Source: Arbacia lixula (Eukaryota; Echinodermata; Echinoidea; Arbacioida; Arbaciidae). Taken from it: a stretch of 64,000 nucleotides of DNA. The stretch covers positions 20,492,699-20,556,698 of the forward strand of contig OZ022581.1 of the NCBI GenBank assembly GCA_963669155.1, in the 5' to 3' direction. How positions within the stretch are numbered: position 1 is the stretch's first letter; each line of letters begins with the position of its first letter. Below are positions 21,731 to 58,600 of this stretch, in pieces. A model generated the notes under the pieces. The model was not told the origin of the DNA, did not search any database, and saw nothing but the letters and a program-made list of their open reading frames with translations. The translations under genes and the position numbers were made by a program.

Positions 21731-21930
21731 NNNNNNNNNNNNNNNNNNNNNNNNNNNNNNNNNNNNNNNNNNNNNNNNNNNNNNNNNNNNNNNNNNNNNN
21801 NNNNNNNNNNNNNNNNNNNNNNNNNNNNNNNNNNNNNNNNNNNNNNNNNNNNNNNNNNNNNNNNNNNNNNNNNNNNNNNNNNNNNNNNNNNNNNNNNNNN
21901 NNNNNNNNNNNNNNNNNNNNNNNNNNNNNN
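21731..21930. other. Assembly gap, 200 N
   Basis: The gap is exactly 200 undetermined bases. The round number suggests a placeholder rather than a measured length. The sequence just left of it (CACTCATCAGTGTAGTCC) recurs at about 25917, to the right of the gap. Confidence 0.99.
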
Positions 21931-27509: not shown

Positions 27510-28130
27510 GGTTGCTCCTTCTGTAATCATAATTAGAGTCAAGACTCTTTAATCCTGCAGCAAGGTGATGATAGATGATGTCACATCCTGACACAGTATT
27601 TCTCCATCTCAATCAGTCTCTCCTCTCCATCTCACCAGGGCCCTGTTGCATAATACTTACCATTGATGGTATCTTTGCTATCAATGGCACCTTCTATGGA
27701 AACTTTGAATTTGATTGGCTGTCCAGTGATGTTACCATGGTAGTTACCATTGATGGCAGAGTTACCATTAATGGTAAGCTTTATGCAACGGGACCCAGGG
27801 CAGCCCAGAGCCTGGGGTTGCTGTGCCTCCTTCTGTGATTATGTCTAGAGTCAAGACTCTTTAATCCTGCAGCAAGGTGATGATAGCTGATGTCACATCC
27901 TGACATCGTACCACCATGTTTCTCCTCTCCATCTCACCAAGGCTCCCTGGAGCCTGGGGTTGCTGTGGCTCCTTCTGTGATCATGTCTAGAGTCAAGACT
28001 CTTTAATCCTGCAGCAAGGTGATGATAGCTGACGTCACATCCTGACATCGTACTACCATGTTTCTCCTCTCTATCTCACCAGGGCTCCCTGGAGCCTGGG
28101 GTTGCAGTAGCTCCTTCTGTAGTGCACCCT
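27510..28130 (-). repeat. Triplicated RTTN terminal-exon segment
   Basis: A roughly 145-bp unit (last part of the coding exon, stop codon and start of the 3' UTR) occurs three times: the authentic one at about 27986-28130, a second at about 27840-27985, and a third at about 27510-27838 that is split by a MITE at 27638-27796. Shared landmarks are CTTTAATCCTGCAGCAAGG and GAGCCTGGGGTTGC. The copies differ by only a few bases, so the duplication is fairly recent. Confidence 0.88.
27638..27796. mobile_element. MITE, CTGTTGCATAAA family, inside a duplicated RTTN terminal exon
   Basis: The ends GGGCCCTGTTGCATAA and TTTATGCAACGGGACCC. A repeated CCAGGGC on both sides, compared with the unbroken copies (CCAGGGCTCCCTGG), indicates a 7-bp target duplication. 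It dates the insertion after the triplication of the exon. Confidence 0.82.
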
Positions 28131-34600: not shown

Positions 34601-37600
34601 CTGCTTGGAGGTCCGAGGCAGCTTGACCTTGGAGAAGGATGCCAGAAAGCCACTCTGCAATGACAAAAGGAAACATTCAATAAGTAATATATTTGCAGAG
34701 CCTGAAACATTGCCTGAGCATAGAGTTCTTTAAAGATCATTGTGTAATTTGAAGGTGGCTGAACATTGAAATACATGTTGATTTCTATTGATGAATATTA
34801 GTTTGTACATTACATTACAATCATTAACTATACAATTTAAGTCTATATCATATATTTTATATACTATTTATATTATTATTATTCATATGATATTTTATAT
34901 CATATAATTTTTCTTTATTTATCTCAGTCTGGCTAAGCCTAGCCTCCAAAAAATCTGGTACTGGTATTGGTATTGGTATTGGTATTGGTATTGGTATTGG
35001 TATTGGTATTGGAATTGGAATTGGAATTGGTAATTAGTATTAGTATTAGTCTCACCTTCCACAGCACATTGCGGCATTCTGCGAACCACACCAGGTTTCC
35101 CAGGACAGCAAAGGTCCTCTGTTGTATGAGGGATGCCTGGCCTGGCAGCTGCTGCTCCTTCTTGGCCCTCTCCCTCTCCACCAGGCGCATGAGGTAATGC
35201 AGGACAGAGTTGCCTGTCTGCCCGGGGCTACTGGAGGCTAGCGATGCACAGGCTGGGATGGGATCAAGCACAGTTAATTTTATTAGAGCAGCTCGAGATG
35301 CATGAGTAAACATTATCTGGTTGATGGTGTATATTGATAAATAGCAGAACAGAGGACTGTTAAAGGGTTACTAAATTAGAAAAATAAGTTCCCACTAATC
35401 TATATAAAATTGTCCACTAAAAACGAATTTCGCATTCGTTTCCCGCAATAAAGTCTCATTTTGACGAAAATTTGAAGAAAAAAAGCACACGCCTCCAGTG
35501 ACGTATGAGAAGTCAAAATGCCATAAATGCCAATGGCGTGAATAAAATAGTTTATTCACACCGTTCAAACAATACGTTACCAATGGGAACCCCAAAGCTT
35601 GTCCGAGATTTGTCCGAGTAGCAACAACTAATAGATTCAAAGTGCATGCCATCCATTGACTCTGAATGACAAGCTACAGGTGAATGCAATAACGCGTTAC
35701 TACGCAGTTAGGGGGGACGTTGTGAATACATTACGAAATGGTTTATTATTGACTTCCGTACAATCTATGGCATTTTGAATTCTCATACGTCACTGGAGGC
35801 GTACGTTTTTTTCAAATTTTCTTCAAAAATGAGACTTTATTGCAGCAAACAAATGTGAAATTCGTTTTTAGTGGATAAGTTTACATAGATTAGTGGGAAC
35901 TTATTTTTCTAATTTAGTAACCCATTAACTGTGATGTGCATGGAGCTGATACAAAGAGCTCAGAACAGAGAGTTGTGGCACTCCATGACATTCTACATCA
36001 CTACAGGGCTTAAAATTGGGTGGGGGAAACAGTTATATCTGTGTGTATATCGATAAATAGCAGAGCAGAGGACTGTTAACTGTGATGTGCATGGAGCTGT
36101 CTCAGGACAAAGATTTGTAGCACTCCATGACCATCTACATCACTACAGGGCTTAAAATTGGGTGGGGTAAACAGTTACGGTTGACGGGAAGGGGACGTAA
36201 CTTCATGACATGCTAACAGAATGGTTACAGGTAATCAGAACATGTTTCGTATTTGATCATGTAAGTAATGTTTGTAGTATGAGCAATGTCAATTTAATTA
36301 TCTTCTTACGTAATAGCATCCTAACACAGGGTCTTCCATGAAAACGTTGCCATATCAATTATCTCACAAATGCAAAGAATCCTGAAACATGGAAACTCAA
36401 GGAGAAATGTTACAGTCCACGTGTTAAGACCACAAGAAGGACGTAAACTGCCCCTCCCAGTCACATGTTTCATAATGTGGAAACCCTTGCCGTTTTGGCT
36501 TATTTCCAAATATAAAATCTCCATTCATTATTGCCTAGAAAATGTTAGGTATTGCTGCAAAAATATCATGAGCCAGGTCTTAAAATCTACCTTTGTCCTG
36601 AAAATTGGCATCCTTTACATTAACCCCATGCCACCATACATTTGTTCCCTTCCATTCCCTTTCATCTCACCTGTAGGACATCTTGCTGTGTATGTTGTTA
36701 ATAACTGCAGTGTGGTAGCTACTAGTCTCTCATTCATACCCGACCATCCCCCTTATTTGCCCACTGGGACCCTCTTTACCCTACCCTGCCCATCCACACC
36801 CCTACCCCACACATCCCCACCTCTACCCCACCCTTCCTCACCCCCTTCTCCATCCGGCCACTTCTAACTCACCTGTAGGGCATCTTGCTGTGTATGTTGT
36901 CAATAACTGCAGTGTGGTAGCTACTAGTCTCTCATTCATACCCGACCATCCCCCTTACTTGCCCACTGTGACCCTCTATACCCTACCCCACCCATCCACA
37001 CCCCTACCCCACCCATCCACACCATCCCCACCCCTACTCCACCCATCCTCACCTCTACCCCACCCTTCCTCACCCCCTTCCCCATCCGGCCACTTCTATC
37101 TCACCTGTAGGGCATCTTGCTGTGTATGTTGTCAATAACTGCAGTGTGGCAGCTACTAGTCTCTCATTCATACCCGACCATCCCCCTTGCTTGTCCACTG
37201 TAACCCTCTATACCCTACCCCACCCATCCACACCCCTACCCCACCCATCCACACCCCTACCCCACCCATCCCCACCTCTACCCCACCCTTCCTCACCCCC
37301 TTCCCCACATGGCCACTTCCAACTCACCTGTAGGGCATCTTGCTGTGTATGTTGTCAATAACTGCAGTGTGGTAGCTACTAGTCTCTCATCCATACCCGA
37401 CCATCCCCCTTACTTGCCCACTGTGACCCTCTACCCCACCCTTCCTCACCCCCTTCCCCATCCGGCCACTTCCAACTCACCTGTAGGACATCTTGCTGTG
37501 TATGTTATCAATAACTGCAGTGTGGTAGCTACTATTCTCTCATCCATACCCGACCATCCCCCTTACTTGCCCACTGTGAACCTCCATACCCTACCCCACC

Positions 37601-40600
37601 CATCCACACCCCTACCCCACCTATCCCCACCTCTACCCCACCCTTCCTCACCCCCTTCCCCATCCGGCAACTTCCAGTTCACCTGTACGGCATCTTGCTG
37701 CGTATGTTGTCAATAACTGCAGTGTGGTAGCTAGTAGTCTCTCATTCATACCCGCCATCCCCCTTACTTGCCCAATTTGACCCTCTATACCCTACCCCAC
37801 CCATCCACACCCCTACCCCACCCATCCCCACCTCTACCCCACCCTTCCTCACCCCCTTCCCCATCCGGCCACTTCCAACTCACCTGTAGGGCATCTTGCT
37901 GTGTATGTTGTCAATAACTGCAGTGTGGTAGCTACTAGTCTCTCATTCATACCCGACCATCCCCCTTACTTGCCCACTGTGACCCTCTATACCCTACCCT
38001 ACCCATCCACACCCTTTCCCCACCCATCCACACCCCAACACCACCCATCCACACCCCTACCCCACCCATCCCCACCTCTTCCCCACCCTTCCTCACCCCC
38101 TACCCCATCCGGCCACTTCCAACTCACCTGTAGGACATCTTGCTGTGTATGTTGTCAATAACTGCAGTGTGGTAGCTAGTAGTCTCTCTTCCATACCCAA
38201 CCATGCCCATAGTTTATGCAGGCTCAAGCTCAGGCCAGACTGCAGAGCTGCAACCTGGAAATGAAATGAAAGGAAAGAGCTGATTTCAGTGCTCACATCT
38301 ACAACAATGTTTTAACAGCGATAATTTGTCTGAAATATGCGTTCCTCTAATTCTCTTAAATGGTATTGAAATCACAGTTTACAGTGTTTTTCCTCATCAA
38401 AGGCTGATCTACACTAAGAAAAAATCCTAGAAAAAAACCTGCTCATTGTCAATCACAGCCAGTTCGAAAAGATTATTGCTCACACACTGCTCATCCTTAA
38501 TGCAAGTCAAGTCCTGTGTATATAAAGCTAAGAATATAGATTTCTTTGGTGAGATACATGTACATGCACAATTATAGGTGTGGAAGCTGTAAATCATTGT
38601 AAAAAAGGAGACACAAAACCTGTTGTTGTAATGACAGCAAAAGCAGCTCCTCTAATAAAAAAAATGATTAAAAAAAATGTGGCTGAACCAATCACATACT
38701 ATTTTAGGAAGCCCTAAATGAATAATGATTCTGCCCGAACGAGGACTTTGGGAGGGTTGCTGAGGGGGAAACCTGCAGGGTAACCCTCTGCAGTTTGTAC
38801 CTTGACATCATGACTGTGCAGCATGAGGCAGTTGAGCAGGTCAAGATAGGACATCAGCTGGGTGAAGACTGGGTCCTCCTGGGAGATGAGGAAGAGGTGT
38901 GGGGGGGGGGGGGGGGAGGGTCATTACCAGACACAGAAACAACATCCACAATGTCTATCTTCACACCTTTTATTGATGTACAACAATAAAAGCAAACAAT
39001 AAAACAAAAGCCCACAAAACAATAATGGAAAGAAAAGGATAAATCAGAAAAAACATCCACAATTTCTATCTTCATACCTTTTATTGATGTACAACAATAA
39101 AAGCAAAAAAATAAAACAAAAGGTCCACAAAAAATAATGGAATTAAAAGATAGAAGAGAAAATCATCCACAATTTCTATTTTCATATCTGTGATTGAAGC
39201 ACAACAATACAAGCAAAAAATAAAATGAAAAAGACCATAAATAGGAATGGAAATAAAAATAAGGTAGCAAACACAGAAACATACAAATCAAAATCTCCTA
39301 GAATATGCTCAACATCCACATCCTACAAAACAGTGTTGTATATTGCATTGTAGATATCATTGTAACTTACAACAATTCAAAACCATGATGAAAGCAGCTT
39401 TTGAGGTCTCAGCATTGTCACTGTTGCCATGGCATTTAAAATCAGAGGTCGGTTGCCATAGTTACATACTTATGTATACCCAACCCATCACATTTCTGTG
39501 TCACCAATATGTTATGTAATTAATGTGCTTATGATGTGCTGTTGTGTTTTGTAAGACATGGGCATATGGGAGGACATGTTTGTATCCCAATTACTGACAA
39601 GGCTACCCTGGGTAAATAAATATGACTGGCTGAATAATCATAAATGTGGTTGGCATGAATGTTCCTTACCTTCTTCCTGTTACTGCCTTTGTCCATGTGG
39701 ATGCTCTGCAGGGAAAGCCTGGTGTGAATGTGCTTGATAGACTCCATCGTTGTCTCCACCAGCCCAGCTGTAGAGGAAAGGATTAGCTTATCATCACCCA
39801 AGTCTCCATACCCCACACAGGGGGGAAAGTCCTTCCATAGTGCACTGTACAGCAGCATCGTCCGCTTCCGGTCTCATACACTAGTACACCAGACCGGAAG
39901 CAGATGTGAAACCTGTCTATAGTGGCCACCCAAGGGAAACAAAAATTGTGGCCTTTATAGACAGGTTGGCTGCTATAGACAGGTGGCCGCTAAGACAGGT
40001 TTGACTGTAACTACAAAAAATCTGAATGTGACAGTGCGATGCATCACAGAACGACTTTCCCTTACATGCAGTATGGATGCGGGCGGTACTTGATATCAAG
40101 TAATGCAAATAATACATGATGCATGAAATGAAAGAGCATACATTTCTGTACAATGTGAATCCTTTTTTGTTAGTAATATTGATGTATACCCTTCGTAATG
40201 ATTTGTCAAAGCAATATTAAGGTGACATGTATTAACTATATCTTCAAATCGCCAACATGCTCAAATGGCAGAAATCATGCTTGCACTTTCAAATTGGCAT
40301 AATAATTGCTCTAACTTGTATTCTTTTAACCTATGTTAATTCAATAGCAACAAAAAGACCAGAAATGTATCCTTCCTGTCAGCTGTAAAAGCTTGGCTAA
40401 CCATTTAGGGCATGCTGCTTGGCTGAGTCGGAGACAGCTAGGAGCACCTTGAGAGCAGAGAATGTTGCTGGTTTCTCCTTGGCTAGATTGGTCCCCGTTG
40501 ATCTAGGGAGGGTCCCGTCGTACGCCTTCAGCAGGACCTCACAGAGCTCATGCCCTGCTGACAGGTCTGTAGGGAGAGATGAAGGAGATGTACTGTACCT

Positions 40601-43600
40601 CATACTATGTGGTTAAAAAACATTTGACACTTTTGAAATAGTAGTATGACAACAATCAAGTGATAACTCAAATGATTTTTAGATGAAATTCAAACACAAA
40701 TTTGAAGGATATCATTCTGGGGAGCATGTTTCTTGACATTTCTTCAATTGATATTCTTGTAATGATCCTTTCAACTTTTAATCAGATTTTGATTTTTTTG
40801 ACCAATCAAGATGAAAAATTTGGGGTTGAATAATTCAGAACACAATAATGCACATTGTGCATCACACATATGGAGTCTTGAACTAGATGATATCTCTATT
40901 ATTTTCTTTATAACTCTGTAAAGAGCTGCACAGATAGCAGAATGTGGCTGGAAATTAAAAGATATAGAGCTGTTAATACTTCAATCGAGTTAAAGGTAGC
41001 CCGTCCCTTATGCACACCTAATTCTGAAAATTCCCTGAATTTGTCATCATTTGAGAGAGAACCTTTCCCTGGAATCAACAAAGCATAATAATCGGTTTTG
41101 AGGAAATAATCTTCGATAATTGATCAAGCTTTCTTTTTTCGTACCTCAAAAACAGACAAATCTCAGTGAAAACTAATTAGATTTTCATTTATTCTACGGG
41201 AGTTATAGTACCTCTGACCTTAAAATTTCACAGTTGGTATTCCAAAGATATGTGCTAAATATGTGCAAACTTTCATGAAATTTGCAGATGTTTGTAAAAG
41301 GGACGGGCCATCTATTAGTCTGAGAATTAAATCTGTTTCACCTTTTCACAGATCAAATTACTGAAATATACTTAATCAGGTCACAGACCATTAACACTAA
41401 CTATTTCATCTTTACCTCCTGCTGCCTAATGCCAAATTCTTTCTCTTCCAGACTCCATACTTCTCTGTGGGAATGGTGTGTATCACCAGCCTGAGGGCAA
41501 ACACGTCCCAAAGGTGCATTAAATGTTCATGGATATACATAAGCAGCCATACATGAAACATACACCTCACCTCCATCAGTGTCACTTGCAGCAGTCTTCT
41601 CATCGAGTAGTCTTGCCAACAGGTGTTTTCCCTCCTGTTCGCTGCTGATTTCTTCCACACCACCCTCCAAACTCCTGGTGGGAAGACCAGCCTCCTCCTC
41701 CTCAGCCTGAGTAAGCATCACAGCCAGGAAGCTGAGTGCTGCTATCCGCGTTGAGGCTGGGCTGGGGCACCGCAGGACTGAGATGATGCACCCTGCGTCA
41801 GAAAAAACATCAATGGCATAAGGACATTATTTTCCGGATGACGGTACAGATTTTTAAGGCTGGGCTGGGGCACCGCAGGACTGAGATAATGCACCCTGCG
41901 TCAGAAAAAACATCAACGGAATAAGAAGGACATTATTTTCCAGATGACGGAACAGATTACACTGCCCAAAACGTTGAGACTGATACTCTCTCTTTCAGAT
42001 ATTTTCAACACACTGTTTTGTGCATTCCACCAATTGAAAATGAATTACTAGATACAGGTGAATGTCATAACACGTTTATACCCTGTAAGGGGAAATGTTG
42101 TGAATATATTACAAAAATAGCATATTCCATGCATGTTTTTAGAACTTTGAGGACGTGAGATCTGTCTTGTACCTGTGATGTGCCTCCAGCTCCCACTGAG
42201 GATGCCCCTAAGGTCTTCTGTCCCAGCCAGCTGACAGAGAGTGGACAAGCATTCAAATGACCTCCTCCAAACATCATGCAAAGCAGTGGCCATCCGCGTA
42301 TCTGAAATGTGAACACATATTACAATATCAAATGGTATCAAATGAAGGGCAATGCTCAGATTTTGTTTTTAAAAAGTATTTTTCCATGTCTCTCCTAGAA
42401 TTGCTAGATTCTTAATTTTGTAATGAATTTGAATCTTTTTAATGCTCTTCTATGTAAAGAGGGGACATGAGAAGAAAACTGAAAAGAAATGAGGCAAAAA
42501 CCTTGCCACTTCCACTGCCCCACTGAAGTTTACTTCTTGTATTCACCTGCCTTGGAACAACAACCAGAATTGCTGCATGAAGCCGTTTTAAATGCCAACC
42601 TTCACCTTCACTGCTTACGCAGAACAAAGATACCAAAAATGGATTGCGATTCGGTGTCAACATTTCCATATGTAACTATCATTAACATTTTTCGTGTACA
42701 TTTAGCAAGGCCTTTTGAAGCGCTGTGCCTAGTAGAGAGTATGGCATGGCATACCTGTGGATTCTGACCACTGCAGGGCTAACATCTGGCAGCACTTTGC
42801 AGCGAGCTTCCCATCATGCACAGCCTGCAGCGTCGCAGGAGCATCCTGCCGCAAGCAGGCCGCACAGAGCCTCAGAATGGCGCTACACATGGCCGCATGC
42901 CTGCAGAGCTGCACCTGGCTCAGGTACATGTGGGAGGAGCCTGTACAGGGGGAGTGGCCGGCAGACTGTGAAGGGGAGGGGCCCATAGCAGAGGGAGAGT
43001 GGCCGGCAGACTGTGAAGGGGAGGGGCCGGAAGCAGAGAGGGAGTGGCCAGCAGACTGTGAAGGGGAGGGGCCCAGAGCAGAGGGGGAGTGGCCAGCAGA
43101 CTGTGAAGGGGCGGAGTCTGTATCGCAGGAGGCGTGGTCCATATTTTGAGGTGTGTGGCCCACAGGTTGGGAAGTGGAGGGGTCCTGTGGTGTGGACGGT
43201 GTGGCATCGTGGAGAATGGTCTGAAGGCGGGTCACATTGATGACCCTAGAAGAAATGAAAAAAAGCAATATATCATTGAATATCTCATACCCTGATCAGC
43301 AAACACACACACGATCATATCTCTAAAAATGCTTTTGTTCTTTTCTTACAGAAGCAGAAAGGTACAGAAACATGCAAGAAAAGAGACTTTAAAGAATAGA
43401 TAAAAACGTGAACAATTATCCAGCAAAATATTCACATTTCAATACGATATAAGGAGTAATTTGCAAGAGAAAAGGAAGATCTAGATGTGTGTCTTGTAAT
43501 AAACTTATTCTTCATGCAAATGAAGTGACATATCATCCATCGCCACACTACTATAACCGAGAGTGAGAGATTAAAATTCATCTGTAGTTCTACATAAGGG

Positions 43601-46600: not shown

Positions 46601-49600
46601 GAAACATCCACTGACAATATATCCAGTCAATTTGTGGGTTTCTCTCTGTTTTTTTTTTTTTTTTTTTTTGGGGGGGGGGGAGCTGTTGAAGACAGCAGTG
46701 ACCATATGGACTTTGGTCTCTATGCTTCATTAACAGGTGGGGCTTATTGCCATTAATAGTGGTATGAGCACAATAGTGGTTACCATGACAACATACTACA
46801 GTAATGTAATGGACTTCTTGCTAAATGTGAACACATTTTGTAAGAGTAGTGTGATGCTCACAGCAAATCATCTTGTGCTATCAAATACATGTCATGAAAG
46901 CACAAAGAAACTTTCATAAGAGCTCATGTTCATATTTTTTTACAAACCAATTACTACTCTTCATCTTCCTCTTCCTCATCACTGTCGATGTCAACAACAT
47001 CTTGGATGTCAAACTGCTCGTCATCATCTGCGTCACCATCGATGTCAACAGTCAAGTCAGGCGTGCAAAGGTCTGGACCCCTCCAGCAAAACCAGAGGGA
47101 CTTGAGAATGCCGCCTTTGACTCCTTTTGCTCTGTCCATGGCTATGATCGCTCATGTGGTGGCCACGGCATTCCCCTTGATCATCATGTATATGATAGCC
47201 TTAACCAGGCATGGATCAGAAGGAAATCTTCCCCGCAACCCTTCATAGATGTCACTGCTCAGGTTGTTCCTGATGACTATGAAGCTCTTGGGTTTCGCCT
47301 CTCCTCCCCCACGATGCCTCACTCTACCCCTGCTATGGCTGACACTGGGTGCCAGAGCTGCTTAGCCGGCATTAAGTTAGTTCGACGTCTTGGATTACGT
47401 CAACAGGACCTCATCCCTGTCAGCATGAAAATGCGCACTGCCACGAAGGGGGGTGTCAGGATTCTTGGGGCCATTCCACTGTGTTTGTCTGGCAGGGCTC
47501 CCTCAGGTCATACAATCAGGACGAGACAGCTGACTTACGTCACCAACAGCTCTGATCAGCTCTTCCTCAGCCGGGAAGCCTGCGTTGGCTTGGGAATCAT
47601 CTCGGACAGTTTTCCATAACTGGGTGTGACACAGGAGCGGCCCCTGATGGATACAACTGCAGCCCTTGAGGGGACCCCTACTGGGAAAACCTCTGCCAAT
47701 GCCCCAAGCGCCCAAAGGCCACAAACCCCTACCTCACTGCCTTTCCCAGCGACTGAGGAAAATCGTGACAAACTACAGCGATACCTCCTGGACTATTACA
47801 AGAGCAGCACATTCAACACTTGTGAACACCAGCCCCTGCCCCTGACGGATGGCCCTCCTATGAAACTGATGGTGGATCCAGATGCAGAGCCTATCGCACA
47901 TCACACCCCTGTGCCTGTCCCACTCCACTGGCGGGATGCTGTCAAGGCTGGGTTGGATCACGATGTTCAGCTGGGCGTGCTTGAACCTGTCCCAGTTGGG
48001 GAGCCTGTAACCTGGTGCCATAGGATGGTCGTGTGTGCTAAGAAGACTGGCGAGCCAAGAAGGACTGTTTACTTCCAGGCCCTAAATGCACATGCCACCC
48101 GTGAAACACACCACCCGTGAGACACACCACACCCAATCTCCTTTCCTTGAAGCTCGGTCGGTTCCACATGGCAAGAAGAAGACTGTCTGTGATGCTTGGA
48201 ACGGCTATCACAGTGTACCCATCTGTCAGGAAGACCGCCATCTCACAACTTTCATAATGCCCTGGGGAAGATACCGCTACAAGACCGCCCCACAGGGGTA
48301 CATTTCCTCTGGCGACGGCTACACCAGGCGATATGATGAGATTGTGTCGACCATCCCATGCAAAACAAAATGTGTTGATGACGTCTTACTCTGGGCTGAT
48401 ACGTTAGCTGACAGCTTCTTCCAAGCTATCCAGTGGCTGGATGTCTGCGCCCGGAACGGGATCGTCCTCAACCCTAGCAAATTCACATTCGGTGCAGACA
48501 TTGTTGAATTTGCAGGCTTCGAAATCACTACTGACAGTGTCCGACCATGCCGGAAATACCTGCAGGCGATCCTCGATTTCCCGACACCCACTACTATCAC
48601 TGATGTGCGATCATGGTTCAGGCTCATCAACCAGGTGTCATATGCCTTCAGCATGACAGAGAAGATGCTACCGTTTCGTCAGCTCGTGAAGCCTAGTACG
48701 CCAATCCATGTGGACCAACGCCCTCCAGCTTGCCTTTGAAGAGTCCAAGGCCTTTATTGCCTGCGAGATTGAAGATGGCGTATGGATCTTTAACCCCACC
48801 AAGCCTACCTGCCTGGCTACGGACTGGTCCAAGGATGGTATTGGTTTTTGGCTTTTGCGATTGCAGTTGCGATTGCAGTGGCACTACCCCTTTCTGCGGT
48901 GTCTCTGGTTGGAAAATAACTCTTGTAGGCAGTCGATTTACTCATGCTGCTGAATCTCGCTATGCCCCAGTAGAAGGCGAGGCACTTGCAGTAGCAGAAG
49001 CCCTTGACAAGGCACGATACTTCGTCTTGGGATGCGAGGATCTCATCGTTGCCGTCGACCACAAGCCACTACTCAAGATCTTTGGTGATAGGGCCTTGGA
49101 GGGAATCCCTAATCCCCGCTTGCGGAATTTTAAGGAGAAGACATTGCGATACAGGCATCCGTCACCGTGCTACAGACTGTCTCTCTCGTCACCCAACAGG
49201 CGAGCCTGAGAAGTTACACCTCCCGGATGACGTAGCGGTGGTCGATATGGTGCCAGCATCGTTCCTCCACTCACCAGCCCTCATGGGGGGCCTTCGAACC
49301 TTAGACCCATAGACGGATGCTGTTGAAGTCTGCACACTCTCAACTGCCATGTGTGCTCTGGACTCTATTCACCTCAAGTCAGTTACTTGGGACCGAGTAC
49401 GTCTGGCCTACCTGACCATCGCCATGCGTTTCCCCAACCTCTTCGTGAATATTCTCAGTTTCGAGATGGACTTTCTTCAGTTGATGGAGTTATCCTGTAC
49501 AATGATCGCGTGCTTATTCCTCCTTCACTCAGGGATGAAGTCTTAAGCCACCTACATGCTGCCCACCAGGGGATTACGTCGATGACCGCTCGTGCGGAAG

Positions 49601-52600
49601 CATCTGTCTTCTGGCCTGGCATCACTCCGGCGATTGCTGCTCTACGTGCGGGATGCACTCAGTGTAACCGTATAGCACCCTCCAATCCCAGTGCGCCACC
49701 AGTTCCACTGCTCTCGCCAGTCTACCCCTTCCAGTGTATCTGCGCGGACTACTTTCATTACAAAGGATGCAACTATCTAGTCATAGTGAACAGGTACTCG
49801 AACTGGCCAATCGTTGAACGGTCTGCGAAGGGGGCGGATGGCCTAATCACATGTCTACGTCGCATCTTTGCCACTTTTGGCATTCCAGATGAGCTGACCT
49901 CTGATGGTGGCCCTGAATTCACGGCAGTAGCTACACGCCATTTCCTCGCCAACTGGGGCATGCATCATCGCCTCGCCTCTGTTGCCTTTCCCCATAGCAA
50001 CTGTTGAGCTGAGGTTGCTGTGAAGACCATTAAACGACTCATTATGGACAACACTAGCACTACTGGATCCCTGGATAAAGACAACTTTCAGCGGGCCATA
50101 CTTCAGTATCGCAATACCCCAGACAGGGACACGAAGCTCTCTCCAGCCATGTGCGTCTTTGGCCACCCGATCCAGGATTTCATCCCAATTGCCCCTGGCA
50201 AATACAAGCCACACAACACCTGGTGTGAAACCTTACAGGCAAGAGAAGAGGCCCTTCGCAACCGTCACATGAAAGGAGCAGAACGCTGGTCGGAGCACAC
50301 CAAACGGCTTCTACCTCTTGTTGTCGGCAATCATGTCCGCATCCAGAACCAAACCGGGCCACATCCTCTGAAATGGGACAAGACCGGCATCGTCACTGAA
50401 GTACGGCAATATGACCAATACATGGTCAGTGTAGATGGCTCCGGCCGGGTGACACTGCGGAATAGGAAGTTTCTGAGACAATACACCCCTGTCCATCGGC
50501 CCTTGCCGCCGAAGACGATGGAGGATGATGTTCGTGCCTCAAGTCGACCAATGTACCCTTACTCTCCCAAGCATCCCACTACCATGTCTGGAGGCCCACC
50601 ATCACCCCCTTCACGTCAAGCTAGACAACCGTTATAGTGGTAGTTCCCAGTTATGTATTGCATCACCTGGGGGAGGGGACCAAGGCATTTCTGGTGTTGA
50701 TCTGTGGGCATCAAATATTAATCGACGCAGAATCATTGCTGCTTCCTCCATTCTTCTGCTTTCTGAAGCAGCTGCTTGAAATGCTGTTTCCACAGCTTGA
50801 CCACCTTTGATGTTGCCTGAGTAGATCAGTTCACTTTGGTAGTTCTTTGACACAGTCTCTATAACAGGCGTGATAGTAATGTGCTTCCCTTGCAACAAGA
50901 TCATTGTTATTCACTTTACCTTGGAGCTCAGAATCGTCTGTTTCCAGTGCTCTCTGCTTAATCAGCTTACTTGCTGCAAATGTTTGGCACTTTGTCAGTT
51001 GTTCTTCCTTTCCCTTTCTCTTTTTCCTGTACCTGTTACAAAACATACACTCATTGCTCGGAAAGAGGATGTCAGCATGTTGTCTTCTCCTTTTTAGGCT
51101 ACATGGAAGATTAGAAGATAAAGATGATGGGCGTTTCAAGATAGCAGACACATTGGTAAACTTCTGGTGGCATTTTCTATGATAACCATGTACATGAGAA
51201 ATATTATGTATCAAATAGAAGAAAATGTGATTTCCCTTCATTTGAGCCCCATTTTATACTAAACGGATAATTAATTCAAAAGTTATGCGCTTTTAAAAAA
51301 AAAGTTAGCATTTTCATCTCTCGCTGCCATGGCAACGGCTCTAGAGGCCACACCCACCACTTCGAAAAAAAAAGTGGATTCCGATTCCTGGGATTCCAAA
51401 CTAAAAGAAAAAAACATGAATAGGAAAAATCCTTAATGGGGAATATTCAAATATTATTTTCTATATGAATAAGTGCTAAACTTAGCAGAAACTTACCTCA
51501 GATGAGTGTAAAGAAATGTTTGATGCAACAGCAAAACTTTTGACCAAACACAAACAAGCAACTGTCCAGGTTCACCCACCAGAGGGCGCACGTCTGATTT
51601 ACTTTTGTGATTCTGATGATATTGTCATTATTCTTTTTGAAGTGTTATAGCTTTTTGGTAAAAATTGTAATAATCACCAATTTTTCACAGTCTATTAAGC
51701 ATACTTCAAGGCAATTTTTAAATTTTATTTGACAGCATCTAGTTGATTAATGACCATTTTATAGATATTTACATTTCATGATGAATATGCAATTTTCGGA
51801 AAAAATATAAAAAAAGGGGGTTTCCCCCATTTTTTAATATAAATGTGATTGTAAAAAAAATCAAAAGTGGTACCAACATGCTGAAAATTTAATTTCCTTC
51901 AAAATCATACCTCATACATGTTTGAAACATGTTTTACAGAAAAGTTATAAGCTATTTTGTACAACCTTGCATTTTCATACTCCGTAACCATGGAAACGGC
52001 TCTGGAGGCCACACCCACCACTAAGAAAAAAAACAACAAGTGGATTCTGATCCGTGGGTGTCCGAAATATAAGAAAAACATAACTACGAAAAATCCCTAA
52101 GGGGGGGGAGGGTTCACCCCCGCTGGCCCATGGACTATCTTGAACAAGTATTAACAACTAATGACTTGGTCAAGAATGTAACAATCATGGTGAGTTGTAA
52201 TTTACAAATACAGTGAATGTATTTGTTATTCCCTCTGCAAATCTTTCATATCAATGACTTTATTGAATGTTGTTTATTGCATCATAAAAGTAAAGTCCAA
52301 TGTTTGAATAAATGTTCATGTCATTGATCGGTGAGTAGAGTGAGCTGGTTTATGTCTTCTTACCTGGTGGAATTGCACCCTGCTATCCCTGGATCCAAAT
52401 GCATCTTCCATCTCAGATGAGTCTATGGTTAAAACACACAAAATTGTTTTTAATCAACATGTGACACAAGAGCTATAGGCATGTCAGTGATGTCTGGGAA
52501 GGGGAAACCTAATTGACTTACGTACAAAATGACTTGCAATACGGGCATAAACAAAAAGCCTGAATATGTGCTTTTGATTGAAGATTGGATTACATGTAAA

Positions 52601-55600: not shown

Positions 55601-58600
55601 TTAACTTTGAGCATGCCTGTGAAGTGATTGAAAAAGCACATTGAAAGTATAACTTTTTTAAAACAATTTTTTCATTTAATTCAGCCATATAGAAGAATAT
55701 TACAGACTGCTCATGTTGTGCAAGTTGTGCAAGTATTAGACAGTTTATACTCATAACCATGCATAGTCCACAAATAACGCGTGTTTCCTCAAAACTAGTA
55801 GAAATTTAAATACTGGTGAGTGGTCTTGGTCTTGGTCTTGATCTCGTAATTTGGTGTTCTTGATCTCGGACCTCTGTTCTTGATCTTGAACCAATTTTTT
55901 GGTTCTTGATCTTGGTCTCGGTGTGTTTGGTCTTGGTCTTGATCTTGGTCTCGGATGGTCTGGTCTTGACTACAACACTGATATGTGCACCATCTCCAGA
56001 TTGAGATATGGTAAAGAAATGTATGTACTTCATTGCTGGAATGACTTATCGTCCAATGACATTTGCCTTTCTAAACAATTTTGTTGTGACATTTGCTAAA
56101 CTGTTAATTTCATAACAAATGCTATACAGTATGTGCAATAAATCATTGTTGTAACAAAAATCAACCAATAGAAAATGGCGATATGGTGTACATACCTGTC
56201 CTATATGACTATAATGGCAATAATGATATTTGCCTTTCTAAACAATTAAATTCAATTCAATTCTTTATTCACTTAACAAAAAATATAAACAATTTTCATG
56301 AACAATGAATTCAAGGTATCACCAGAAAGCTGATGGCTTGTAAAGTGTGATGTTCTTTATTTAGAACATACAGTTAAATACACATTTTACTCTATAATAC
56401 AAATGACCGGCAGTAAAATGAACCAATGTACACAAATTACATCAAAATATGTACTTTAGAAATACATCAAAGAAGAACTTATAAAAACTTAAAAAACACA
56501 CAAAACAAAAATACACATAAAAAATTAACAACTGAAACAATAGACAATAGAGTCAACAATTTGTAATATCGAAATGTTAAATGTAAAATGTACTAAAAAT
56601 TGCTACAATGTTAAATTCATAATGATGCTATAATAGCAATGGATCTATGCTGTAATGAAAATAAAGGAATAGAACACTAAAGCACATTGTGTGGTCTGGA
56701 GAGGGATGACATTTAAGCATTAAAAAAATGGAGATGGTGCACATACCTGTTGCCTGACGACACTGCACTCTGAGTGGTCGAGAAGCACTGAGAGGGCGAG
56801 GTCCCACACCCCTCCAGGACGCTGCTGGAAGCACCCTGCCACCGCCCCACAGCCCTGGGGGGACGACGCCAGAGACGCAGCGATACCCAACCCTGCTGCT
56901 CGCACCTGCACAGGGTCACACCAACATCAAAGAGAGATTCATGTAGGTCCAGTCCCCTTTTTCACATCAATTTCAATTTCAAGATCGATGTATTTTTTTT
57001 TTTAAAGATATATAGATATCATCATTATCATCATCATCATAAACGTTTAAAGTTATAATTTTGTTTAACCCTTTGTGTGCCTGACGAAGTACTGCTCTAT
57101 GGGATATGTGTGCATTATTTGTGCAAAAATGCACACATGACGTGTCAAGGGTTAATATACAGAATTATACATTTGTGGAATTCCAAACACAAGGCATTAG
57201 CAATATTGTGTCTCGCCCAATTGCGAAAACAACCAGAAATATCGCGATCTCCGTTGCTACGCAAAAGAATTGTATCCCTGGCTGATTGTGAAATATCTGC
57301 CATAGAATGTAACATTCCATAAATGAGAAGGGCTATTTCACGCAATGCTCCCCCTCCCCCACCTTCCCCCTTCTTTGAGATGGAATAAAAAGCCTCCACC
57401 AAGTTCTATTAGATTAGACAAAGACAAAACAGGATGATAATCAGTTGCACAATAGAGGCAATTCTGTGCACAAGTTAGGAAGCCTTCACCAAGAGTCTTG
57501 CAAGTAAACTTTAATGTATGACCTCAAATGACCTTTGACCTTATCCTGTGACCTCCAACAGCACCATAACATGAAGGTACCCCCAGTGCATCTATGACCC
57601 AAGTTAGGTTGTAATCCAAGCAACCTATGTGAAGTTATTTGTCAAAAGAGAGTCTTGCAGGTAAACTTTAACGTATGACCTCAAATGACCTGTGACCTTA
57701 TCCTGTGACCTCCAACGGCACCATAACATGAAGGTACCCCCAGTGCATCTATGACCCAAGTTAGGTTGTAATCCAAGCAACCCATGTGAAGTTATTTGTC
57801 AAAAGAGAGTCTTGCAGGTAAACTTTAACGTATGACCTCAAATGACCTTTGACCTTATCCTGTGACCTCCAACGGTACCATAACATGAAGGTACCCCCAG
57901 TGCATCTATGACCCAAGTTAGGTTGTAATCCAAGCAACCCATGTGAAGTTATTTGTCAAAAGAGAGTCTTGCAGGTAAACTTTAACGTATGACCTCAAAT
58001 GACCTTTGACCTTATCCTGTGACCTCCAACGGTACCATAACATGAAGGTACCCCCAGTGCATCTATGACCCAAGTTAGGTTGTAATCCAAGCAACCTATG
58101 TGAAGTTATTTGTCAAAAGAGAGTCTTGCAGGTAAACTTTAACATAGAAAAAGAGAGTCTTGCACATACTCTTTAATATATGACCTCAAATGACCTTTGA
58201 CATCATCACATGACCTCTGACAACACCATAACATGAAGATACCCCTAGTGCTTCTATCAACCAAGTGTGGCTGCCATTGCTGTAACAGTTGCCAAGTTAT
58301 GGATCATAAGAGAGTCTTGCAGAGTTGCAGGTAAACTTTAACATTTGTGACGGACGACGGACGACGGACGGACGACGGACGGACGCCATTTGGATCCCTT
58401 AGTCTCGCCTTCACCTCCGGTGGGCGAGACAAAAATGTTGTGAAGGGGGAAAACAAATGAAGAAAATCTACAGGCAATAATGGATAGAGTTATGAAATTT
58501 AACAGTTATAAGGGCATACTTGCAGAATGGAAGTTGTCTTTCTCACCTCTGGATCTCGGTAGGACAGGAGAGGCGTGAGCCAAGCTAAGCCGCCCTCGCT

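Follow-up and report, generated by a model that had tools for sequence, protein, structure and literature searches.

An RTTN intron of Arbacia lixula holds seven extra copies of the preceding exon end and its splice donor

RTTN, a gene known for its connection with cilia and centrioles, lies on the minus strand of a 64,000-nucleotide stretch of the genome of the sea urchin Arbacia lixula (GenBank assembly GCA_963669155.1, contig OZ022581.1), referred to here as the window and numbered from its first letter. One RTTN exon ends in a repeat unit made up of the last 76 nt of the exon, its splice donor and a G-rich minisatellite, and beyond this first unit at the true exon end another seven follow downstream in the next intron. 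An earlier note on this DNA had claimed such a unit with seven extra copies, and we located it on the minus strand at the place claimed. The array is probably a minisatellite that happens to span an exon-intron boundary; its downstream donors would be mostly ignored, and no selected function is required to explain it.

Organization of the array

The array lies on the minus strand within 36660-38254, directly after the 127-nt exon. The last exon-like bases of the eight ends fall at 38128, 37884, 37683, 37481, 37328, 37105, 36873 and 36671, giving end-to-end spacings of 244, 201, 202, 153, 223, 232 and 202 bp, and Tandem Repeats Finder reports a period of 202, 7.0 copies and a score of 1215 (minimum 50). 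The features are listed below; splice-site scores, here and throughout, come from a simple weight matrix.

38128..38254, minus strand: true RTTN exon, 127 nt, with acceptor 8.4, donor 8.7, an open frame and tblastn matches to rotatin (P0001 and P0002)
38203-38128, minus strand: part of the exon that recurs in the array, 76 nt
38122..38127, minus strand: true donor, GTGAGT
38093..38095, minus strand: TGA reached after 11 codons of read-through from the true donor, present in each of the seven longer exon forms
37884..37959, minus strand: exon-tail copy 1, followed by donor GTGAGT
37683..37757, minus strand: exon-tail copy 2, with one base deleted near its start and a weak donor, GTGAAC
37481..37556, minus strand: exon-tail copy 3, donor GTGAGT
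37328..37403, minus strand: exon-tail copy 4, donor GTGAGT
37105..37180, minus strand: exon-tail copy 5, donor GTGAGA
36873..36948, minus strand: exon-tail copy 6, donor GTGAGT; last 70 nt identical to copy 1
36671..36746, minus strand: exon-tail copy 7, donor GTGAGA; end of the array
36747..38121, minus strand: stretch with the seven G-rich spacers and the tails of copies 1-6 between them
35253..38127, minus strand: array-bearing intron, 2875 nt, with a downstream acceptor score of 2.7; the next exon matches rotatin

Each spacer consists of about 35 nt after the donor, a variable number of ~21-bp GGGTAGGGGTGTGGATGGGTGG-like repeats and a common 31-nt stretch. Copy 7 is taken as the end of the array because its likeness to the rest of the array ends about 10-12 nt past the donor cut. 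A minisatellite, or variable number tandem repeat, has units tens to hundreds of bases long that are joined head to tail and vary in their number of internal repeats, and such a layout is found here in the one sequence at hand. The G-richness is strand-specific, with 20 sense-strand G-quadruplex motifs and no antisense ones in 36660-38127, compared to a mean of 2.9 and a maximum of 7 in 200 mononucleotide shuffles; the remainder of the minus strand of the window holds nine.

Seven 70-nt stretches lie within 3-5 mismatches of the exon, a similarity too close to be chance. Multiplication of a single unit by misassembly is very unlikely. Tandem repeats are error-prone and the window has one run of Ns (21731-21930), though far from the array, but the unit lengths vary from 153 to 244 and the copies differ from one another at 0-7 of 70 tail sites.

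The host gene

A protein search, in which 7993 candidates were scored, used a query of approximately 390 residues taken from nine putative exons, with X as padding. Seven proteins were matched, all seven named rotatin or rotatin-like, from Lytechinus, Diadema, Acanthaster, Patiria, Holothuria, Pleurodeles and Polymixia, with the best matches from the echinoids Lytechinus and Diadema. Searching the window by tblastn with those rotatins placed rotatin exons in order along the minus strand, between 63.9 and 27.9 kb, and covered the array-bearing exon (P0001, P0002) as well as some tail copies (P0001, P0002, P0003). Because of these seven matches and the ordered exons, we identify the gene as RTTN, in agreement with the earlier note; rotatin homology runs along the ordered exons and across the exon junction.

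The true exon is entered in phase 0 and left in phase 1. We read the preceding exon as ending at 38801 and the following exon as starting at 35252, which gives flanking introns of 546 nt upstream and 2875 nt downstream. In pairwise alignments over the exon junction, all seven rotatins are gap-free at the junction itself; a few positions beyond it, the two vertebrate rotatins have extra residues (10; 4 + 3), and farther along the Holothuria protein is one residue short. None of the seven aligned rotatins shows a repeated tail peptide at the junction. The exon peptide found no match in the PDB at E up to 10, the exon open reading frame (ORF) found no Pfam family at E up to 1, and neither Rfam (gathering thresholds) nor ARAGORN (tRNA and tmRNA) gave a match across the window.

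Splice sites within the array

The true donor scores 8.7 and the donors of copies 1-7 score 8.7, 4.0, 8.7, 8.7, 7.4, 8.7 and 7.4. A consensus donor had been claimed for every copy; six of the seven extra ends do keep CAG/GTGAG (the slash marks the cut), while copy 2 departs from it with CAG/GTGAAC (4.0 vs 8.7). Counting the true end, GTGAG occurs at seven of eight ends and the lower-scoring GTGAA at one, so that each unit brings a donor, as in minisatellites of the IFI6 kind discussed below. Between 38260 and 35260, eight donors score at least 6, namely the true end, six copies and a spacer GTGAGG (37053), and none of these lies downstream of the array.

Acceptors are distributed very differently. 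The exon's own acceptor (38254) scores 8.4 and that of the next exon 2.7, while nothing within the array exceeds -1.0 among the best 14 listed of the 170 AGs scored (36660-38260, exon included). The copies thus lack acceptors of their own, as claimed.

This pattern bears on two ways in which the copies might take part in splicing. In the first, the tail copies would be spliced in as additional cassette exons that keep the frame. All seven extra copies have an open frame across the tail; upstream of the tail, an in-frame stop closes it 109 nt from the donor in copy 2, 103 nt in copy 5 and 82 nt in the other five, so the claim that every copy keeps the frame open holds for the tail and not beyond it. 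With the frame closed in five of seven copies and no acceptor above -1.0, use as cassette exons is exceedingly improbable. We also rejected a duplicated cassette exon array, in which every copy would bring both an acceptor and a donor of its own, on the same lack of acceptors. As a separate observation, copy 5 (37105-37207, minus strand) has CAAG in place of the in-frame TAAG found just before the tail in most copies, and this is preceded by TTACAG; it could be an in-frame exon given a working acceptor there, although the sequence ahead of it is rich in G. That in-frame stop is missing from copy 2 as well, owing to its one-base deletion, and no AG is present at this position.

The second possibility is recursive splicing, in which splicing from a donor to the CAG of the next copy would remove one unit and rebuild the donor. 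AG and GT are juxtaposed at all eight exon ends (...TACAG/GTGA), and tandem exon pieces bearing AG/GT are a proposed route of intron gain in the accessible part of PMC2891723. Set against this, acceptor scores at the eight ends range from -1.8 to -3.7, compared to 8.4 for the exon and 2.7 for the next exon, and no pyrimidine tract lies upstream of any of them, which makes recursive splicing highly improbable. A recursive (ratchet) site, defined by a good acceptor before the donor, was likewise rejected at scores of -1.8 to -3.7.

Consequences of downstream donor use

Past the true donor, the reading frame runs 11 codons to a TGA (38095-38093), so each downstream donor would give an early stop, and this part of the earlier note is borne out. 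Use of the donors of copies 1-7 would lengthen the exon to 371, 572, 774, 927, 1150, 1382 and 1584 nt, with the shared TGA 209 to 1422 nt ahead of the seven possible junctions. Nonsense-mediated decay acts on stops lying more than 50-55 nt before a junction. Under this usual rule, the longer forms should be a decay target.

Which donor is used would depend on how the exon is recognized. For competing 5′ splice sites, the portion of PMC9225289 available to us describes the upstream site, nearest the upstream acceptor, as favoured where flanking introns are long (exon definition), and the downstream site as favoured under intron definition. The introns of 546 and 2875 nt are long by the standard given there, therefore the upstream true donor should win. 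Carried over to another animal, this rule most simply predicts that splicing mostly passes over the seven extra donors. The exon would be recognized across itself, from its single good acceptor at 38254 to the nearest donor at 38127, and the other seven donors, most of which equal or nearly equal it by sequence, would seldom be used. Any product of a downstream donor would carry the early stop and would be removed by nonsense-mediated decay. The array may be tolerated because exon definition favours the nearest donor.

Alternatively, as decoys of the kind envisaged in the earlier note, the extra donors, each with 76 nt of near-matching exon sequence ahead of it and G-runs behind, could capture U1 and a share of splicing, sending transcripts to decay in proportion to copy number and thereby tuning RTTN output. 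Several features fit such competition: the scores of the copies (8.7, 4.0, 8.7, 8.7, 7.4, 8.7 and 7.4) beside the 8.7 of the true donor, the fact that seven of the eight donors scoring at least 6 (38260-35260) are exon ends with none downstream of the array, the identical early stop in every longer form, and a human repeat with used donors on record (IFI6, in the part of PMC4526556 available). Still, we regard it as unlikely, since exon definition as outlined in PMC9225289, so far as its available text goes, predicts use of the upstream donor, the longer exons would reach 371-1584 nt, and the tails carry no significant sign of selection. The stronger proposal that the copy number of this exon-end satellite sets RTTN dosage via decay, with more units giving less rotatin, is distinctly unlikely.

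Divergence among the copies

Over the last 70 nt, the copies show 3-5 differences from the exon (mean 4.1) and 0-7 from each other (mean 3.0; both means taken by hand). The earlier note had the copies closer to each other than to the exon; this holds only weakly, and copies 2 and 3 differ from each other at seven positions, compared to five and four from the exon. Only two sites over the whole tail split all seven copies from the exon (TTG versus TCG, and GAA versus RAT). At the second, where the exon has GAA (Glu), the copies have AAT or GAT, and copies 3 and 4 encode Asp. Rotatin relatives have Asp at this site in six of seven pairwise alignments and Ser in the seventh. Since six relatives and two of the copies have Asp, the change may have occurred in the exon. 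The homogenization suggested earlier is thus weakly founded, with two sites separating all copies from the exon and one of them perhaps changed in the exon.

The open frames invite the question of constraint. By hand count, which omits codons 1-2 of copy 2 (shifted by its deletion), the changes among copies comprise seven nonsynonymous, two synonymous and no stop, against a neutral expectation of 64/31/5 in the same order. The chance of at most two synonymous changes out of nine is 0.39 and that of no stop is 0.63, so these nine changes reveal no protein-level constraint. Among copies 1-6, 7 of 62 tail columns vary and 12 of 65 columns of the two unique flanks, and the tails are not significantly less variable (Fisher p 0.32). 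Selection on the tails as coding sequence was rejected as unsupported by either result. On balance, the open frames appear to reflect recent descent and give no evidence of use.

Origin of the array

The similarity between exon and copies starts at a G-rich, minisatellite-like stretch of the exon, in which 12 of 14 bases match the minisatellite core and which is the best minisatellite match inside the array-bearing exon. Slippage or unequal crossing-over between this stretch and G-rich DNA of the intron could have produced the first duplication of the exon end and donor, with later exchanges giving the seven extra copies. That exon-intron similarity seeded the duplication is suggestive only: across 23 approximate RTTN coding intervals, 2.3% of 20-mers score as well as this stretch and five of the 23 intervals hold one.

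Several points weigh against an array that arose in this way and persists without function. Another RTTN exon matches the minisatellite better (24 vs 18), yet lacks an array of this sort, and the likeness at the boundary makes the start of the copied exon part harder to place. If intron definition applied instead, the rule in the consulted part of PMC9225289 would pick copy 7, harming the gene. Mean diversity among copies 1-6 is 0.038 in the tails compared to 0.065 and 0.065 in the flanks; in wider windows over copies 1-7 it is 0.039 compared to 0.146 and 0.181, where the flanks include minisatellite and unrelated DNA past copy 7. Lower diversity in the tails is the direction that would be expected of selection or conversion.

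Other repeats and elements in the RTTN region

The window contains further repeats in and around RTTN. A 142-bp tandem duplication at 27808-28120 (2.2 copies, 95% match) repeats the end of the last RTTN exon, with the repeated C-terminal coding end (27977-27864) placed beyond the stop codon of the first copy. Because the end of the last exon is also duplicated, RTTN has two separate duplicated exon ends. Inside another stretch of coding sequence, a 45-bp in-frame minisatellite (42947-43111, 3.7 copies) lies within an RTTN exon and is longer than in Lytechinus; acceptor-like AGs scoring 6.2 recur in it every 45 bp (43055, 43010, 42965). A 157-bp tandem repeat at 57492-58143 (4.2 copies, 98% match) lies between two other RTTN exons. 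Also between RTTN exons, on the opposite strand, is a retroelement (46855-50637, plus strand) with adjacent ORFs carrying reverse transcriptase, RNase H, integrase zinc-binding and integrase core domains, a domain order that we take to be Gypsy-like.

Comparison with known systems

Competition between duplicated 5′ splice sites was studied by Reed and Maniatis in 1986, as described in the part of PMC9225289 available; of PMC12480690, the available part contains a citation of that study and general remarks only. The RTTN array likewise places near-equal sites in cis, and the exon sequence before each is nearly the same. Unlike the Reed and Maniatis constructs or the database of alternative sites in PMC9225289, it is a series of eight that occurs naturally. 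These 5′ splice sites, near-equal apart from one weaker member, with nearly the same 76 nt before each and G-rich DNA after the first seven, make a ready-made test of whether exon definition by itself holds splicing to the first site. Silence of donors 2-8 would show that a load of duplicated donors is bearable by an exon-defined gene, and their use would point to repeat-length-dependent control of RTTN.

The array also resembles intron gain by tandem duplication (PMC2891723 and PMC4974935, both in part), where the duplicated exon piece contains AG/GT. It differs in that the RTTN AG/GT belongs to an exon-intron boundary already in place, the copies are found in the intron behind it and nothing calls for a new intron. 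Intron repeats of an earthworm metallothionein are not described as exon-end copies in the available part of PMC12783039. Besides IFI6, we noted no other clear precedent among the open-licence papers listed by our searches, which does not imply absence from print.

The repeat unit of IFI6 is reportedly about 12 bp. By its anatomy, the exon-end array would belong with minisatellites of this kind. The IFI6 minisatellite with multiple splice donors is a direct precedent, cited in PMC4526556, PMC2572611 and PMC2915984 as far as their accessible text goes, and two downstream repeat units are used as donors according to that of PMC4526556. The RTTN array differs from it in its unit of about 200 bp, which includes 76 nt of coding exon, and in the early stop to which downstream use would lead. 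In both, the tandem repeat lies at the end of an exon and multiplies its donor, so that several 5′ splice sites follow one another.

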